A stretch of DNA of 64,000 bases from an uncultured Clostridia bacterium (GCA_945873695.1 CAMCDX010000001.1:1-64000), one strand, 5' to 3'. Positions 22,487 through 63,347 are shown, counted from the first letter of the stretch. Notes: generated from the sequence alone by a model not told the origin. Numbers and translations: made by a program.

Positions 22487-22772
22487 GGAACGGGCAAAAT
22501 AGAAGCCCCCGTCCCGTAAAAGGACAGAGGGCGAAATGCTTTCGCGGTACCACCTCTGGTTCGCCGCTCCCTCACGGAAAACGGCCTCGTGGAGTGCCAA
22601 CACACTCCCGCGCGGTAACGGGCGCGACCGGGACACGCCTACTGGGTTCCGAAAAACTGTTGGGGTGCCGGCTCCGCGGTGTATTCGGCGGGCGTCCCTC
22701 TCCCCTTTCCACCGTCCAGGGGCTCTCTAGGCAGGGCGTTCCGCGTACTTCTCCGCATCAATGCCATATACG
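22487..22772 (-). promoter_or_regulatory. T-box riboswitch leader of tyrS (Tyr specifier)
   Basis: Minus strand contains ggTGGTACCGCG T-box sequence, downstream hairpin with T-rich end, and candidate specifier TAC at 22681..22683. Confidence 0.9.
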
Positions 22773-29302: not shown

Positions 29303-29334
29303 ACAGGATGACCTCCGTTGTATCAAAAACGCTA

Positions 29335-29987
29335 AGCCGGCGGCAGCGGAAAAAGTAAATCTTACGGCTTAGGTACGGGTCGGATTTCCCCGCGGCGCAC
29401 CTCTCGTTGCCGATGGAGGCGGTTCCCCTTTCAGTGCCGCAGCGTGTCGTCGCCAGTTCACGCTACCCGATTGCCACTTAGTCCGCACTGCAATCCTTTT
29501 TTCGCCCGGAAAGACAGCCTAGGTGATTTCCACCCCAGTCCGTCCGTCTCTTTAGCCTCTTTTGCAGCCAGGGTTTCAGAGAGCAGGGGGCCGCCGGCTG
29601 CTCCGGCCGGGAGCGAAGGCGGCCTGGCCTCTCATTCGCCATACCCACGCAAGGCAGGCTACGTCTGCACACAGCGTTACGGCCCCGCAGGGCCGATGCA
29701 CCGCATTGCAGGTTCATCATCTGCTTCGTACACAGCTCGGAAATACCGCGATGGGAGTACGGCTGTGCACAAGAGCAGGTCTCCACGGAAACAGGGTCGG
29801 GATAACCATGCCATTGGAAAGCGCCCTGAGTCCGCAAGCGCGCGCCGCGCGCTTCCCCCCAGCACCCACCCAAAACTGGGCGTATCAAGCAGGCACCAGA
29901 GGTTTCATCGGTGTGCCCTTCAGAGGATTTTTAGGCCCTCCCTAGGAGACGGCAGATCTGACTAGAATACTGCGCCGCCGCTTAGCG
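29335..29987 (-). ncRNA. ole: candidate OLE (ornate, large, extremophilic) RNA
   Basis: ~650-nt structured, non-coding interval between ispA and oapA in the ispA-OLE-oapA-dxs arrangement; own promoter; only spurious overlapping ORFs. Confidence 0.8.
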
Positions 29988-29993
29988 AGATTC

Positions 29994-30022
29994 AGTATAA
30001 CACGATTCTCATAAATATACAA
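29994..30022 (-). promoter_or_regulatory. sigma-A-type promoter for the OLE candidate
   Basis: TTGTAT-N17-TATACT on the minus strand. Confidence 0.8.
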
Positions 30023-54331: not shown

Positions 54332-55339
54332 TCAGAGCGCAGAACCGCCGGTCATGCCGCCAACCGCGACGAACCGCCAGTCGGCAAAGCCGGCCGCGAA
54401 GCGGCCGCGGCCCTTCCACAGGTTGTTGTCGTTGTTGTCATCCAGCACGGAGCGGACGATCAGCTTCACACGGTCCTGGAAAATGGAGCCGTCCATATCC
54501 GCCAGGATCTTGCTGTCCAGCAGGAACCAGGGCTTGTCCGTGATACCGGCCTTCTCCAGCGCCTCGGTCAGATAGGGGTCCACCAGGATGTTCCAGCGGC
54601 CGTACTGCTGGTTGTAGGCGTTGGTGCTGTCGGTGGGGTTCTTGTCAGAGCCCACTGCCGCGAAGGCCTTGTCCTTCAGGACGCCGTCATTGGGGATCCA
54701 GATGGTGTCCGGGGCGATGTTCAGCAGCTCGCCGTTGTCGCCCACGGTGTTCTGCATCCGGGTCTCCAGCAGGCTCAGGTTGGCCGCCGTCAGGTCGCCG
54801 GTGAACAGGTTGGACTGGGCCTTGCCCTTCACCTTGGCGGGGTGGTCCTTGGCGAACAGGGCCTTGTGGTCCGCCGCTGCGCAGTCGAAGGTCTTGGCGC
54901 CGAACTGCACGGTGGTGCCGGTCAGGCCGCCCACATACATGGCCCGGCCATAGCGCTCCCGGGTACGGGCATAAGCGGTGATCAGCTTGTTGGCCCGCTT
55001 CTTCATGGTGCTCAGGCGGTTGTCCTCCACCAGCTCCTGGGTCACGGCGAACTGGTTCTTCCAGGTCTCGTTGACGATGTCCTTGGGGAAGCCCTCCTCA
55101 AAGCCGGTGTTGGGGTACTGGCCGCCTTCACCCACGGGCTCGAAGTCGTCCATGGCGGTCTCGCCGGTGTAGCGCTCCGCCCAGTGCTTGCTGTTCTCCA
55201 TGCGGAACAGGTTGGGCAGCAGGCTGGCCTGCTCCAGGGCCTCACCGCGCTTTTCCAGATAGCTCTTGATGGGGAACTGGCTCTTGCCGAACATGGAATC
55301 CACCACGCCGGAGCCAATGCTTACAGTTACGAAACTCAT
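54332..55339 (-). CDS. major capsid protein
   Basis: 335 aa, follows scaffold and decoration genes; ENRLSTMKKRANKLITAYARTRERYGRAMYVGG, DTIWIPNDGVLKDKAF. Confidence 0.75.
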   Translation of the reverse strand: MSFVTVSIGSGVVDSMFGKSQFPIKSYLEKRGEALEQASLLPNLFRMENSKHWAERYTGETAMDDFEPVGEGGQYPNTGFEEGFPKDIVNETWKNQFAVTQELVEDNRLSTMKKRANKLITAYARTRERYGRAMYVGGLTGTTVQFGAKTFDCAAADHKALFAKDHPAKVKGKAQSNLFTGDLTAANLSLLETRMQNTVGDNGELLNIAPDTIWIPNDGVLKDKAFAAVGSDKNPTDSTNAYNQQYGRWNILVDPYLTEALEKAGITDKPWFLLDSKILADMDGSIFQDRVKLIVRSVLDDNNDNNLWKGRGRFAAGFADWRFVAVGGMTGGSAL

Positions 55340-55357
55340 CGTTCTCTCTCCTCTCTC

Positions 55358-55741
55358 TTAGAACTTCACCAGCACGCCGGAACCGACGGCGGTGCCGTCC
55401 ATGCGGACGATCTCCGCCACGCCGGAGGCGGTGGTGGCCGTCACCTGCAGACCGTCGGTGTGCAGGGTCACCTTGCTGCCGATCTTCAGGTCGGTACCTA
55501 CGGCCTGCAGGGTGGTCTCAAAGGTCATGTAGTCCTGCACGGCGATGACCGGAGCCTCGCCGGCAGCGTTCTTGGGGCCAACCGCCACAAAGGCGGGCTT
55601 TGCGGCGGCTCCGCACTTGGTCAGCTTCCCGGCGCTGAGCACCAGCGCCTCGCCCAGCACGATGTCCTCACTGGCCGTCACGGGCAGATACTTGATGGGC
55701 GGGGTGTGACCCACGTCCATGCGAGAAAGCATAAAGCTCAT
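55358..55741 (-). CDS. head decoration-like (DUF2190-like) protein
   Basis: ~127 aa between scaffold and capsid; start trimmed to MSFMLSRMDVGH. Confidence 0.6.
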   Translation of the reverse strand: MSFMLSRMDVGHTPPIKYLPVTASEDIVLGEALVLSAGKLTKCGAAAKPAFVAVGPKNAAGEAPVIAVQDYMTFETTLQAVGTDLKIGSKVTLHTDGLQVTATTASGVAEIVRMDGTAVGSGVLVKF

Positions 55742-55773
55742 ATCGTCCTCTCTTTCTTCATATCCTTCGCTTT

Positions 55774-55875
55774 CGTCGTCACAAAGTCCGCTCCGCTTCG
55801 TTTCCACCTATGGTGAAAACTTCACGTGCTCCCTTGTTCCTCCTCTCCCCACCGCACATGTGCGGCGGGGTCCCC
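55774..55875. repeat. repeat A, copy A1
   Basis: cgtcgtcacaaagtccgct...gctcccttgttcctcctctccccaccgcacatgtgcggcgggg. Confidence 0.85.
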
Positions 55876-56012
55876 GGAAACGGCGAAAGCTCACTCATTT
55901 CGAAGCTCGTCCTCTCCCCACCGAACCCGCTCACCCGCAAGGGGTGCGCCGCATCCGTAAGCGGCAAAGCCGCCAACGGCTGCGCAGGCGCTGGGCTTCG
56001 GCGGGGGACCCC
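55876..56012. repeat. repeat A partial copy A1' with repeat B nested in its loop
   Basis: gctcgtcctctccccaccgaacccgct[..B..]cgctgggcttcggcgggggacccc. Confidence 0.75.
55933..55982. repeat. repeat B, copy B1
   Basis: acccgcaaggggtgcgccgcatccgtaagcggcaaagccgccaacggctg. Confidence 0.85.
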
Positions 56013-56015
56013 GCT

Positions 56016-56954
56016 TCATCCTTTCTTGATATCCTTCAGATACTTGGTGTACGCGGCCTTGATCTCCGCATCGGTAGCGTCCGGCATCATCTCCCGGTAG
56101 GCGTCCCGCATGTCCGCGGGCACCTCCACCGGCTCGCTTCCGCCGCCGGCAGGCACCGGGTTCAGGTGCTGCTTCCCGGCAACGCCGTGGACCGCCGCCG
56201 TCTTGGCCGCCGCGATCTTCCTGGCCTCGATCTCCTTCCGGTTGGCCAGATAGAAGGCGTCCTCAATGGTATTGCCCATCTGCACCAGCCGGTTGAAATC
56301 GTCTCGCGTGGGCAGGGCGATGATATCGTCCATGCTCTTGATCTCCGGCCAGGTGGCGGAGATGTTCTTGATAGCCGCGCCGATGGCCTCCTGGGCCTGC
56401 TGGTTGACAGCCCGGGCCCTCTCCTGCGCCGCCTGCATCTGGGCCCGCATCAGCTGCTCCCGGACGGGTCCCAGCTGCTGGTCCACGATGCCCCGGATGG
56501 TCTCCGGCTGGATGCCGGCCTGCTGCAGCTGCTCTGCCTGCCTGCGCCGCTCCTTCTCCGCCTGATAGGTCCGGAACTCCGCCTCGGTGGTGATGGGCTT
56601 CCCGGTGTAGGGGTTCGTCTGACCTGCGAACATCTCGGCAAAGATCTGATCCCTCCGCAGCTGTTCCTCCGCCTGACGCTCCTGCGCCTCCCTGGCCCGT
56701 CTGGCCTCCGCCTGGCGGTGCCGCTCCTCCGGGCTCATTTCCCGGCGTGCAGGATGCTCTGTGCCGCCTTCCGCCGCTCCCGGCTCCTGGGCCCCGCCGT
56801 CGCTTCCATCTTCGCTCTCAGCGGCCGTCTGGCTGCCTTCCGGCGGGTTTTCTGCGCCGCCTTCCGCTTCCGCGCCTTCCTGTTCCTCCGCCTGGGTCGC
56901 TTCCAGGCCGAAAGCCTCGGCATATTCCGGGCTGATATTCTCGGTGATCTCCAT
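56016..56954 (-). CDS. phage scaffolding protein
   Basis: Acidic N-terminus, long EA/QR-rich helix, position upstream of capsid; start trimmed. Confidence 0.7.
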   Translation of the reverse strand: MEITENISPEYAEAFGLEATQAEEQEGAEAEGGAENPPEGSQTAAESEDGSDGGAQEPGAAEGGTEHPARREMSPEERHRQAEARRAREAQERQAEEQLRRDQIFAEMFAGQTNPYTGKPITTEAEFRTYQAEKERRRQAEQLQQAGIQPETIRGIVDQQLGPVREQLMRAQMQAAQERARAVNQQAQEAIGAAIKNISATWPEIKSMDDIIALPTRDDFNRLVQMGNTIEDAFYLANRKEIEARKIAAAKTAAVHGVAGKQHLNPVPAGGGSEPVEVPADMRDAYREMMPDATDAEIKAAYTKYLKDIKKG

Positions 56955-56992
56955 TTTTGTATCCTCCTGTTCGATTTTTTCGCTATTCGATG

Positions 56993-57110
56993 CGTCGTCT
57001 GAGCAAAGTCCGCTCATCTCCGTTTCCGCCGATCGGCGAAAACTGCGCTCGCTCCCTTGCTCCTCCTCTCCCCACTGGAACCGCTCCGCTGGGTTCCAGC
57101 GGGGGCCCCG
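56993..57110. repeat. repeat A, copy A2
   Basis: cgtcgtctgagcaaagtccgct...gctcccttgctcctcctctccccactggaaccgctccgctgggttccagcgggg. Confidence 0.88.
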
Positions 57111-57138
57111 TGAGCAAATTTCCTAATCGGCGTCCGTT

Positions 57139-57282
57139 TTACTTGCCGCTCTTGTTGCCGGTCCGAAGGTCGCTGCCCGTGATGCGGGTGCTGCCCTTGG
57201 GAGCGGGCCGGCTGCCGTTGGGCGCCTTGATGTTCTGGGTGCCGCTGTTCTGGATGCGGCCGGTGTAGCCCTTGTTCTTCAT
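57139..57282 (-). CDS. small phage protein (47 aa)
   Basis: MKNKGYTGRIQNSGTQNIKAPNGSRPAPKGSTRITGSDLRTGNKSGK; below track length cutoff. Confidence 0.6.
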   Translation of the reverse strand: MKNKGYTGRIQNSGTQNIKAPNGSRPAPKGSTRITGSDLRTGNKSGK

Positions 57283-57301
57283 CTGCCTCTCTCCTTTCTC
57301 T

Positions 57302-57416
57302 CGTCGTCACAAAGTCCGCTCTGCTCATTCCCGCCTGCGGCAAGAATTCGCCACGCTACCTTGCTCCTCCTCTCCCCACCGAAACCGCTATGCTGGGTTT
57401 CGGCGGGGTGGCCCCT
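57302..57416. repeat. repeat A, copy A3
   Basis: cgtcgtcacaaagtccgct...ctaccttgctcctcctctccccaccgaaaccgctatgctgggtttcggcgggg. Confidence 0.88.
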
Positions 57417-57457
57417 TTTGGATGTTTCCGCTGTCCATGCGTAAATCAATGTTCAAG

Positions 57458-57593
57458 ATGGCTGGCTTCCCCGGGTGCGCCACTTGCGCAGCGCACCGGG
57501 GGAGGTACTTCGGGGTGAAAATCCGATGCCTCGCACCGGCAAAAGCCCCTCGGGTGCCGTGATGGCGGTCACGCACCCGGGGAAGCCAGCCAT
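57458..57593. repeat. repeat E: 136-bp element with 22-bp perfect terminal inverted repeats
   Basis: atggctggcttccccgggtgcg (57458..57479) / cgcacccggggaagccagccat (57572..57593). Confidence 0.9.
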
Positions 57594-57597
57594 ATCC

Positions 57598-57756
57598 TTA
57601 CAGGCGCTCTGTCTCTTTCTCCTGCTCCTTCCGAAGCCGCTTGTCAAACCGGGCACACTTGGGATTCCGGCAGACGTACACCGTCTCTCTGGTTCCGTCC
57701 TCTTTCTCCTCTACCCGGTAGATCACCATCTCAAGCCCGCACTGTTTACAAACCAC
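57598..57756 (-). CDS. small zinc-ribbon-like phage protein
   Basis: GTG start; VVCKQCGLEMVIYRVEEKEDGTRETVYVCRNPKCARFDKRL. Confidence 0.6.
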   Translation of the reverse strand: MVCKQCGLEMVIYRVEEKEDGTRETVYVCRNPKCARFDKRLRKEQEKETERL

Positions 57757-59818
57757 TTTGCTGCCCTCCCTGCATGGGCGTCTCCGCCGCCGTCTGCACA
57801 CCCGGTGAGCCGCCCATATCTCCGACTGCACCGCCGGCCATAGCCGCCTGTACCGCCTGCTGCTCCCGCTGCTGTTCCAGCTCCTTCTGCAGGTCCTTCT
57901 TCATCTGGGCCGCCGTTGGATAGTGCAGCTGCTCCATGATGGTCCAGAACCGCACCAGGGTGGCCAGCTCCGTGGGCACCCCGAAGGCGCCCTGCTGGAA
58001 GTTCATCCGGGTCTCCTGCCACATGGCCTCCCGGTTGGATGCCAGGGGCGCCGACGTGTCGCAGGAGAACAGGAAATCGGTGTTGTAAAGCCAGTTCCCC
58101 GCCTCGTCCTGATACAGGAAGTCGTGGCGGTCAAACAGCTTGTACTCCTTCTGGCCCTGCTCGTTGTAGGCCACCACCGGCCTGGGCTCGTCGCAGTAGG
58201 CCAGCAGGAACTTGAACATCAGCTCGAACAGGTCCTGATACTGTGCGTTCTTCATGGTCCGCTTGGACTCCAGACGGCCCGCCGCCTGTGCCGCCGCGAA
58301 CTCCTTAGCCTTGCCGCTGGTGGCGGTGGGGTCCTTCCGGCCCTGGAAGCTGTCGGTGATGCCGATGGTCTCCTTGGCCTCCTCGTAGATCATGGCCCGC
58401 AGCGCCAGGTCGCTGTTCACATCCACCTGGGTGTTCCGCACCTGGAAGCACTCGATGTCCGCCGGGCCGTCCACTTCCACCACCACGTTGTCCTCGTCGG
58501 TCACCGTCAGGTTCATGGACTTCTTCTTGGTGATGATGCTGCCTCCGCCCAGCACCTTCCGGTTGATCTTGGTAGACAGCTTGTTCAGGGTGTTCTGCTG
58601 GTCCTCGATGGCGTCAATGTCGCTGCCGCCCAGGAACCGCCCGCTCTTGCTGACGTTCTTCCGCAGCACCACCGGGAACACGTCCGGCTTGTAGTAGGGG
58701 ATCTTCGTCGGCTCCATCACAGGCTCCTGCCTCGTCAGAGCAAAGTCCGCTACATTCGCCCCGGCCATCCGGCCAGGTCTCATGCCGCTCCCTTGCTCCT
58801 CCTCTCCCTCCGCAAACGCTCCGCTGGTTTGCGTCGGGGTTGGAAACGGTGTCAGCAGTTCCGAGTTCTCAGCGTTCCAATAAAGCTGATTTCCAGGCAT
58901 ATCCCGGAACACCGGCTGGCCGTTCTCGTCCCTGGCCTGGCTCATAGCCGGGATCTTTGTGCCCATGGCGGTGGTCAGGTCCTCCGCCAGCTCTTCGTAC
59001 TCCTGCAGCTCTTCGGTAAACCGCTTGCTGCCGCAGTACGGGCACTGGACGCCGTCGCCCACGGCCCCGCACTTGGCGCAGACCTGCACCCGCCGGGTCT
59101 GGTAGTCCTCCAGATCCTCACACACCACATCGTTGACCCACCGGAACCGGCCCACGCCGCCCTTGTCGTTGCGATAGTATGCCGTGTGCAGCGTCACCAG
59201 CTCGTCGGAGGTGCTGTTGGCCCCGGCGCCGCGGAGCTCCGGGTCCTCCTCGTTCTCGTTGGACACGTCCACGCCGAACCGCCGCTTCACCTGCTTCTTG
59301 GTGACGTACTCGTCCACAAACAGGTAATCCATGTCCGCCACCTGGTCTATGCCGTCCTGGGGCACGACCTTCCGGGGATGCAGCAGCGTCAGCTTCAGGT
59401 CGCCCATCCAGCCCCGGCCCCGGGCCTGGGTAAACCACTCCAGCAGCAGCGCCATGCCGCCCTGGGTGGGGGTGATCCGCTCCGCCTCGTCGTTGATCCG
59501 CTCCATGGGCAGCCGGTCCAGCAGGTTCCGCAGCATGTCCTCCGCGATCTTGGCCAGAGGCTCGTCTTCCTCCCGCACCGCCGTCACCTTTGGCTGGGGG
59601 ATGTTGCTGTCCACCTGGCTCTCCACCACCTCGAAGGCCACGTTCCTCACGTGTGTAGCGCTCTTTTTGGATGCGGTACCGTCCGGCGTCATAATGACAT
59701 GACTTCCGTCCACGATGTCCTCCCGCCGCTGCATCCGCTCCTTCTCGTCCGCGTAGGCCGCCGCCGACAGCCTGTATCTCTCCTGCCAGTGGTCCAGTCG
59801 ATTGTTTTTCTTCTCCAT
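57746..59818 (-). CDS. phage portal protein (podovirus-like) with internal zinc ribbon and an embedded repeat A
   Basis: KIPYYKPDVFPVVLRKNVSKSGRFLGGSDIDAIEDQQNTLNKLSTKI; CAKCGAVGDGVQCPYCG. Confidence 0.8.
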   Translation of the reverse strand: MEKKNNRLDHWQERYRLSAAAYADEKERMQRREDIVDGSHVIMTPDGTASKKSATHVRNVAFEVVESQVDSNIPQPKVTAVREEDEPLAKIAEDMLRNLLDRLPMERINDEAERITPTQGGMALLLEWFTQARGRGWMGDLKLTLLHPRKVVPQDGIDQVADMDYLFVDEYVTKKQVKRRFGVDVSNENEEDPELRGAGANSTSDELVTLHTAYYRNDKGGVGRFRWVNDVVCEDLEDYQTRRVQVCAKCGAVGDGVQCPYCGSKRFTEELQEYEELAEDLTTAMGTKIPAMSQARDENGQPVFRDMPGNQLYWNAENSELLTPFPTPTQTSGAFAEGEEEQGSGMRPGRMAGANVADFALTRQEPVMEPTKIPYYKPDVFPVVLRKNVSKSGRFLGGSDIDAIEDQQNTLNKLSTKINRKVLGGGSIITKKKSMNLTVTDEDNVVVEVDGPADIECFQVRNTQVDVNSDLALRAMIYEEAKETIGITDSFQGRKDPTATSGKAKEFAAAQAAGRLESKRTMKNAQYQDLFELMFKFLLAYCDEPRPVVAYNEQGQKEYKLFDRHDFLYQDEAGNWLYNTDFLFSCDTSAPLASNREAMWQETRMNFQQGAFGVPTELATLVRFWTIMEQLHYPTAAQMKKDLQKELEQQREQQAVQAAMAGGAVGDMGGSPGVQTAAETPMQGGQQSGL
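58732..58842. repeat. repeat A, copy A4, in frame inside the portal gene
   Basis: cgtcagagcaaagtccgct...gctcccttgctcctcctctccctccgcaaacgctccgctggtttgcgtcgggg; 111 bp = 37 codons. Confidence 0.85.
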
Positions 59819-59828
59819 CGTTTATCCT

Positions 59829-59858
59829 CCCGTAGGGCGGGGCGCCCCGCCCCGCCGC
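59829..59858. repeat. repeat C, copy C1
   Basis: cccgtagggcggggcgccccgccccgccgc. Confidence 0.85.
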
Positions 59859-59889
59859 GTCGTCCTCGCACTCTCCTGTCGTCGCATAT

Positions 59890-59920
59890 CCCGTAGGGCG
59901 GGGCGCCCCCGCCCCGCCGC
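59890..59920. repeat. repeat C, copy C2
   Basis: cccgtagggcggggcgcccccgccccgccgc. Confidence 0.85.
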
Positions 59921-59935
59921 TCGTCCTCTCAATCG

Positions 59936-61732: not shown

Positions 61733-62002
61733 CTACCCGCAAGGGGTATGCGACATCCGTAAGCGGCATAGCCGCCAACGGCTGTCCAAAGGCTCTTTTC
61801 CAATTCCCAGCCGGGAGGCGGACCGCTGTTCCGTCTCCCTGGGAAAAGAGCCTTCCGCCCAAACATAGGCGTTTAAGAGCCCCTCAAAGAACGCACGCGC
61901 GTCCTTTGAATTGATATAGGTGTGTTCACTTCTCAAATCCGCCCCGGCCCAGCCGGAGTAGATTTCAAAGGTGATCTTTCCTACGGTATTCGCTCTTGAC
62001 AT
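61733..62002 (-). CDS. hypothetical phage protein with repeat-derived C-terminus
   Basis: MSRANTVGKITFEIYSGWAGADLRSEHTYINSKDARAFFEGLLNAYVW followed by palindrome/repeat-B-encoded tail. Confidence 0.5.
   Translation of the reverse strand: MSRANTVGKITFEIYSGWAGADLRSEHTYINSKDARAFFEGLLNAYVWAEGSFPRETEQRSASRLGIGKEPLDSRWRLCRLRMSHTPCG
61735..61784. repeat. repeat B, copy B2
   Basis: acccgcaaggggtatgcgacatccgtaagcggcatagccgccaacggctg; about 45/50 identical to B1. Confidence 0.85.
61789..61854. repeat. 66-bp palindrome
   Basis: aaggctcttttcc...ggaaaagagcctt with inner gggaggcgga/tccgtctccc stem. Confidence 0.85.
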
Positions 62003-62409: not shown

Positions 62410-62547
62410 TCATTTTCTCTTCCCCTCCTTCCCATTGATCACCTGTACCACCCGGACATGCCCAAACTGTTCCAACGCCATGGCGACAGCCTCCTTCGTG
62501 GCAAGTTTTTCACCGTAGTCCTCAATGTCGATCACGATGCGGACCAT
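62410..62547 (-). CDS. small phage protein (45 aa)
   Basis: MVRIVIDIEDYGEKLATKEAVAMALEQFGHVRVVQVINGKEGKRK; start overlaps upstream stop. Confidence 0.55.
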   Translation of the reverse strand: MVRIVIDIEDYGEKLATKEAVAMALEQFGHVRVVQVINGKEGKRK

Positions 62548-63347
62548 CACCCAACGACCATCCAATCCTCCGCCAGCATGTCCGCCTGGCTGGCCAGCCA
62601 GCCCATCTGGACGCCGGAGGTCCCGCAGAAAGCAATGGCCTTATTTCCGATAGCCTCATGCTCGACATTCACGAAAACGCCCTCGGCGGTCATATAGCTG
62701 ATACGGTTCGCCAACTCAATGTGCTGGTTCTTCCCGTTCCACCCAGCCCGGGCCACCTTCTTCCCCGCCTTCATTTCCTCGATGGCCCTGCCGAAGCTCA
62801 TGTAGTTCCATCCCGGATCACCGCATGTCTCACCCAGGTCTGCCGAAACCTCTTTGGTGTCCATTTTCGGCACTGCGTCGCCATCCACACCATGTACCGC
62901 CGTCTGGAGCAGGAAGCCCAGCAGGAACCACACCTTGTCCTTGATCTTCTTCATGCAGATGTCCGCGCCCAGCTTTTCGTCGTAGTTCTCGGCGCTGACG
63001 CAAGCGGAGCTCTCCACGATCTCGAAGCCGTTCCGCAGGACGGCCCGGACCACGGTGCACTTGTCGCCCATGGTGGTGACATCGGCGGCCACGATGAAGT
63101 CATCCACCATCTCCTGGCTGATGGAGGGCTTGTCCGTCTTCAGATGGGGATTGACCGTCATCTTCAGATAGGCCCGCTCAAATACGTACTTTGGGCTCCA
63201 GCTCTCGTAGCCGTCCGCATACCGGACCTTGTAGCCGGATTCCACAACTGCGCCCGTTGGGCACATTTCGTGAAGCGTGAAAACCTTACCGTCAATACGG
63301 TTCGCAGGCTCCGCCTCAATCAGCTTCGTTCCGATGTACTTGTCCAT
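62547..63347 (-). CDS. three-part phage protein: KYIGTK/SWSP domain + Gp49-like domain + DUF2829 (Tad2-like) domain
   Basis: MDKYIGTKLIEAEPA...YESWSPKYVFERAY; VRAVLRNGFEIVESSACVSAENYDEKLG; YMSFGRAIEEMKAGKKVARAGWNGKNQHI...GWLASQADMLAEDW. Confidence 0.78.
   Translation of the reverse strand: MDKYIGTKLIEAEPANRIDGKVFTLHEMCPTGAVVESGYKVRYADGYESWSPKYVFERAYLKMTVNPHLKTDKPSISQEMVDDFIVAADVTTMGDKCTVVRAVLRNGFEIVESSACVSAENYDEKLGADICMKKIKDKVWFLLGFLLQTAVHGVDGDAVPKMDTKEVSADLGETCGDPGWNYMSFGRAIEEMKAGKKVARAGWNGKNQHIELANRISYMTAEGVFVNVEHEAIGNKAIAFCGTSGVQMGWLASQADMLAEDWMVVG

Follow-up and report, generated by a model that had tools for sequence, protein, structure and literature searches.

In-frame insertion of palindromic sequences is best known from Rickettsia. 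The elements found there, the RPE, are 105–146 bp long (PMC2229807), fold into stable hairpins in the form of a long stem-loop with terminal inverted repeats, and occur both between genes and, in frame, within conserved protein genes; the enzyme that mobilises them is not known. A review lists them together with ERIC, NEMIS, YPAL, RUP, CIR and RU-3 (PMC2229807). ERIC (or IRU) and YPAL are dispersed non-autonomous repeats of ~127 and ~168 bp, some of which are fused in frame to genes; the former has terminal inverted repeats, TA ends and target duplications, while the latter, which contains inverted repeats internally and is not rich in A+T, duplicates 3–26 bp. The CIR of Caulobacter and Brucella, about 110 bp in size, consist of two hairpin arms and a linker, carry GANTC motifs and stops in all frames, and are reported as intergenic only (PMC2229807). 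CGTC-tagged REPs are units of 20–40 bp with one 8–9 bp stem, an unpaired CGTC at the hairpin end and usually a CCA tail, for which no dedicated transposase is known (Di Nocera et al., 2013; PMC3733652). The main text of a 2024 review of prokaryotic MITEs contains none of the terms 'Firmicutes', 'Clostrid' and 'phage' (PMC10969869), and no description of the element family reported here was found in open PMC papers.

This family is present in a prophage on a 64,000-nucleotide stretch of DNA from an uncultured Clostridia bacterium, called, as a whole, the window below. The element is very probably mobile, palindromic and non-autonomous, resembles RPE and ERIC in how it works, and belongs to gut Oscillospirales and their phages: it has filled and empty orthologous sites and many dispersed copies, and no transposase of its own. 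It resembles RPE in size, in its stable hairpins, in having intergenic copies beside in-frame copies in conserved genes (here portal, terminase, FliB-like and ferredoxin-like genes) and in that no mobilising enzyme is known. However, instead of one long stem-loop closed by terminal inverted repeats it has two separate hairpins, a purine linker and fixed, unlike ends; its genic copies use at least two reading frames, and it resides in gut Clostridia and phages. Like ERIC and YPAL it is a dispersed repeat with some gene-fused copies, and like YPAL it has inverted repeats in its interior without being A+T-rich, but it shows neither the terminal inverted repeats and TA ends of ERIC nor any evident target duplication, and its hosts are different. 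An unpaired CGTC end is shared with the CGTC-tagged REPs, as is the lack of a known dedicated transposase, whereas the unit itself measures 103–115 bp in the window, with two hairpins and a basal stem, and the Y1 transposase that is linked to or co-resident with RAYT/IS200-type REPs is missing from several copy-rich genomes. CIR comes close in length and two-armed plan, but not in its motifs, its stops or its intergenic confinement. Because the terminal-repeat or end features of RPE and ERIC are missing, we file the element as a new family of the RPE/ERIC kind, member of none of those described, and set apart from RPE by comparison with their described features. An earlier reading of the sequence alone (the sequence-only reading) had suggested a mobile palindromic element of the REP/RPE sort; RPE-like mobility is supported by the empty sites and the in-frame copies, while membership of REP or RPE is not supported, given the ends, the architecture, the size and the absence of copies beside Y1 genes.

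Architecture and location of the element

All four window copies (A1–A4, Table 1) lie on the minus strand, the strand on which the head genes also run. Read 5' to 3' on that strand, the unit has the form GGGGYCCCCGC–hairpin 1–GTGGGGAGAGGAGGAGCAAGG–hairpin 2–CTTTGC–GACGACGA. A few A/T-rich bases precede GGGGYCCCCGC; hairpin 1, the upper stem of which has a different sequence in each copy, is followed by GTGGGGAGAGGAGGAGCAAGGGAGCG, by hairpin 2 with its variable 9-bp stem, by GGAGCGGACTTTGC and by the terminal GACGACGA. The two hairpins are joined by an invariant purine-rich linker, and a basal stem is formed by GCAAGG and CTTTGC. GGGGYCCCC at one end does not pair with GACGACGA at the other, leaving two independent hairpins and no single long stem-loop; on the opposite strand, the unpaired CGTC motif at one end reads TCGTCGTC. 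When many copies are compared, the 3' end is sharp, conservation stopping abruptly past GACGACGA, and on the 5' side the A/T content is 66–76% in the last four bases preceding GGGG versus ~40% further out. Rfam 15, at the gathering score, has no family matching over A1–A4.

The sequence-only reading had placed four copies here and quoted their terminal stems, and it was right on both counts. In folding stability each of A1–A4 surpasses its dinucleotide shuffles by 5–6 SD (z between −5.1 and −5.8, with 0 of 200 shuffles as good), and the family was also recovered by an unguided repeat search (families D1, D2, D5, D6 and D13). Its further claim of insertions at nearly every head-gene junction is not borne out, since the window holds three intergenic copies (A1–A3) and one in-frame copy within the portal gene (A4). 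The degenerate second unit adjoining A1 is missing as an entire stretch from a related prophage, G029. The different short repeat that it encloses has a second copy at 61735–61784 (90% identity between the two), and several phage records from human faeces contain 90–95% matches to it that span about 55 bases.

Three more copies are found past the end of the window on the same contig (G000:C1 65807, 66841 and 67711), one in frame in the terminase gene and the other two (65807 and 67711) flanking that gene, so that the window prophage carries 7 copies within 12 kb. For six prophage copies, a closer relative is found in another genome than anywhere inside the prophage; these copies therefore arrived separately, and local duplication inside the prophage is ruled out.

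Table 1. Positions of the element, its parts and its carrier gene, counted from the first letter of the window
Feature	Position	Strand	Location or remark
A1, two-hairpin element	55773..55875	-	between scaffold-like gene and gene starting at 55741
A1 parts	hairpin 1 55847-55870; hairpin 2 55800-55820; 3' tag 55773-55780	-	within A1
Degenerate second unit adjoining A1	55876..56013	-	its hairpin encloses a different short repeat (55933-55982)
A2, two-hairpin element	56995..57109	-	upstream of scaffold-like gene
A2 parts	hairpin 1 57070-57104; hairpin 2 57022-57043; basal stem 57055-57060 with 57003-57008	-	within A2
A3, two-hairpin element	57301..57415	-	just upstream of small basic ORF
A3 parts	hairpin 1 57375-57408; hairpin 2 57327-57347	-	within A3
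Portal gene carrying A4	57746..59818	-	PHROG 156, Pfam P22_portal
A4, two-hairpin element	58732..58843	-	portal gene interior, in frame, about residues 326-362
A4 part	hairpin 2 58758-58779	-	within A4

Filled and empty sites

Prophage G029 aligns with window positions 54332–59818 at 76–85% identity and is devoid of A1, A2 and A3; at its A3 site the flanks join within a few bases. No copy was detectable at the A1, A3 or A4 site in another eleven related phages, comprising four viral contigs and the prophages found in seven genomes, in which more diverged copies could go undetected, and the A2 site is occupied in G073 only, by a diverged copy. Related phages thus differ in the placement of their copies, some of which lie elsewhere, e.g. 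at the portal start. Portal relatives are shorter, in frame, at the position of A4, and near-identical loci were found both with and without copies. The comparison with homologous phages, proposed earlier as a check, shows that the copies are not fixed. Terminators or ordinary conserved operon sequence are ruled out by the absence of the copies from sister phages. The site is uninterrupted in related phages and in orthologous genes, so the units are insertions, which, as far as sequence comparison goes, is shown by empty sites at nucleotide resolution together with the in-frame genic copies. At an individual site, exact loss could look the same as gain, but a single copy facing many empty orthologues points to gain.

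Copies inside genes

Besides the portal gene, the large terminase gene of the window prophage (G000:C1 65919–67706; L152:1919–3706, minus strand) holds an in-frame copy, where the insert MGPPPEPSEAGPVGRGEARERFEPWTKGRGEYSGLC sits between TEAEKAM and LDEEQLSWRRW and is missing from all 11 aligned homologues. A FliB-like lysine methylase gene (NF038110) carries a single insert in G007, is occupied at two sites in the genome to which the window belongs, and is uninterrupted in G028, G092, G029 and G107. In a ferredoxin-like gene, which likewise has uninterrupted orthologues, two species carry inserts, each at a site of its own; a sortase-domain gene contains two copies within a single open frame, and a gene common to L204, L211, L217 and L261 harbours an antisense copy, again in frame. 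The verified genic copies all keep the reading frame and contain no stop codon. A flank search allowing any frame, on what is a small set, found no clean frame-breaking genic copy, the one apparent case (L047:7980) lying in fact after the portal stop codon. In AlphaFold2 models, pLDDT falls below 50 over the terminase insert (residues 254–284), which is modelled as a loop, and over residues 319–361 of the portal protein, compared with means of 79 and 74, respectively. The simplest reading of the open frames is that genic copies would be translated as a flexible loop of about 35–40 residues.

In-frame palindromic insertion is now found in common gut Clostridia and their phages, including the essential portal and terminase genes, and these culturable organisms offer a system for studying both the movement of the element and the gain of protein loops. 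For annotation, this means that part of these proteins is element-derived, as are many small ORFs with sequences of the type RGGARERAQFSP..ETE.SGLCDD.

Family size, orientation and covariation

Copies were counted per genome as matches to a covariance model. Its 12 founding copies include four from the window, whose own matches are thus partly by construction and were not used as proof. The assembly to which the window belongs, a MAG, has about 20 copies (19–22 by threshold), and up to 34 per genome are found in the genus. Across the order, 31 of 197 genomes contain copies at E <= 1e-5, representing 26 of the 111 genera sampled; the genomes compared are mostly MAGs, with organism names as given in their GTDB records. 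The carriers include gut Oscillospiraceae and their phages, many copies being held by phage-derived contigs, and the majority of copies are intergenic. Among unique contexts, copies between tandem genes run in the sense of their neighbours in 30 cases versus 12 against (p 0.008), and all 13 classified copies from viral contigs or the window prophage follow the sense of their genes; these orientation counts are approximate, the gene calls coming from a simple purpose-built hexamer scorer.

The compensatory stem changes suspected from the window copies are amply confirmed in an alignment of 119 copies (108 distinct) from GTDB genomes, made with the covariance model. Across both helices, 98.1% of cells are paired, and the 108 distinct copies show 229 double changes versus 42.9 in shuffles. 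Sliding the partner column by one lowers pairing to about 50% (at most 54% in the slid controls), and although an alignment fitted to the structure favours pairing, the gap to the controls is large. Hairpin 1 was detected in 80 of 161 copies versus 12 in the shuffled control, and its upper stem retains pairing through many pair types. Such covariation means that pairing has been retained; alone it is no proof of RNA function.

Possible mode of movement and alternative explanations

The proposed course of events is that an enzyme supplied in trans would move the unit, the 3' tag tending to be placed against a GACGA/GAAGA-like target sequence, after which selection would retain those copies that lie between genes or in surface loops where the frame is preserved, mostly running in the direction of transcription. 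The dense pattern in the window prophage would then result from several separate insertions, in portal, terminase and intergenic sites. Sequence resembling the 3' end of the element indeed pre-exists at several targets: it is GAYGAYGAG-like in terminase homologues, GACGAG at the ferredoxin gene target in relatives of G013 and GARGARGAR-like at FliB site 1. The match fails, however, at FliB site 2 and in the ferredoxin gene of G007, and short target stretches have been replaced at some sites. Comparison of filled/empty pairs by eye revealed no consistent target-site duplication, although a short one could be masked by divergence.

Two known types of machinery might be responsible. A Y1 (IS200/RAYT-type) HUH transposase could move a REP-like element by recognising the hairpin and CGTC tag, which would fit the lack of visible target duplication and the likeness to tagged REPs of the opposite-strand hairpin beside its unpaired TCGTCGTC end (PMC3733652). 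We nevertheless regard this as unlikely since Y1_Tnp (PF01797) has no match in G014, G061 and G244 (96–100% completeness) or in several other copy-rich genomes, and the flanks of 20 Y1 loci are free of copies, ruling out linkage. Alternatively, an RNA copy might anneal to a nicked target through its GACGACGA end and be reverse transcribed. Such target-primed movement would account for a fixed, target-matching 3' end with a looser 5' junction, and it suits the pre-existing tag-like targets, the lack of target duplication, the RNA-like covariation and the sense-strand bias. Yet no reverse transcriptase (PF00078) was found in three genomes of 95% completeness or more, G014 (14 copies), G018 (34) and G121 (21), which makes this route improbable too, even if the enzyme may have been phage-supplied or lost. 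The complete genome of G014 thus has neither enzyme, and no mobilising enzyme was identified in the Y1 transposase and reverse transcriptase searches of copy-rich genomes. It is conceivable, if rather doubtful, that the element represents a new mobility type: a hairpin element needing neither enzyme, which would set its 3' tag GACGACGA against pre-existing GACGA-type sequence, enter genes where these encode Asp/Glu-rich surface stretches, in a frame that is tolerated, and spread through phage structural operons.

One rival explanation does without transposition of single units. Recombination and horizontal exchange of repeat-bearing phage modules would be in line with the tandem copy-number differences, the mosaics with other repeats and the abundance of copies on phage-derived contigs, but it is very unlikely, because single units interrupt unrelated cellular genes with flanks matching empty orthologues, and the prophage copies are not most closely related to one another. 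The sequence-only reading had also raised a processing or regulatory RNA motif, that is, hairpins dedicated to the head operon which, as RNase sites or stabilisers, would fix the relative amounts of portal, scaffold and capsid. Strong sense-strand hairpins, covarying stems and the sense bias (without exception among the classified phage and prophage copies) all speak for it, as does the effect of ERIC and NEMIS copies on mRNA stability (PMC2229807). However, the same junctions are empty in related phages, and copies also reside within the coding sequences of portal and terminase, as well as in FliB-like and ferredoxin genes, which are cellular. As the sites are not conserved among related phages, such a primary role is unsupported and, in our estimate, highly improbable, while a side effect of the mobile element on mRNA decay is possible.

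Blocks of 750–890 bp bounded by inverted copies of the element, with ~155-bp matching ends, are repeated at several sites in G018 (L144:805–1635, L145:18–817, L146:700–1448 and L147:916–1802), with copies at contig ends. They could be recent mosaics or a larger mobile form; since their outer flanks are further repeat modules and no convincing transposase ORF was found, a transposon was rejected and they are read as mosaics.

Other features of the window

Between A3 and a zinc-finger-like ORF lies a structured stretch (57456–57595, minus strand) with a 22-bp perfect inverted repeat. It has a z of −7.0 versus shuffles and 85% identity over 136 bases in prophage G029, where the corresponding stretch alone gives −1.9; it is possibly a conserved phage RNA, distinct from the repeats. 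Two copies of CCCGTAGGGCGGGGCGCCCCGCCCCGCCG, like GTAG-tagged REPs, are located between the portal and small terminase genes (59828–59934). Further along, an ORF at 62547–63347 (minus strand) fuses a Phage_gp49_66 domain to a Tad2-like (Thoeris anti-defence 2) domain. The window also contains an OLE RNA (29324–29994, minus strand; 367 bits) and a T-box leader (22524–22770, minus strand).
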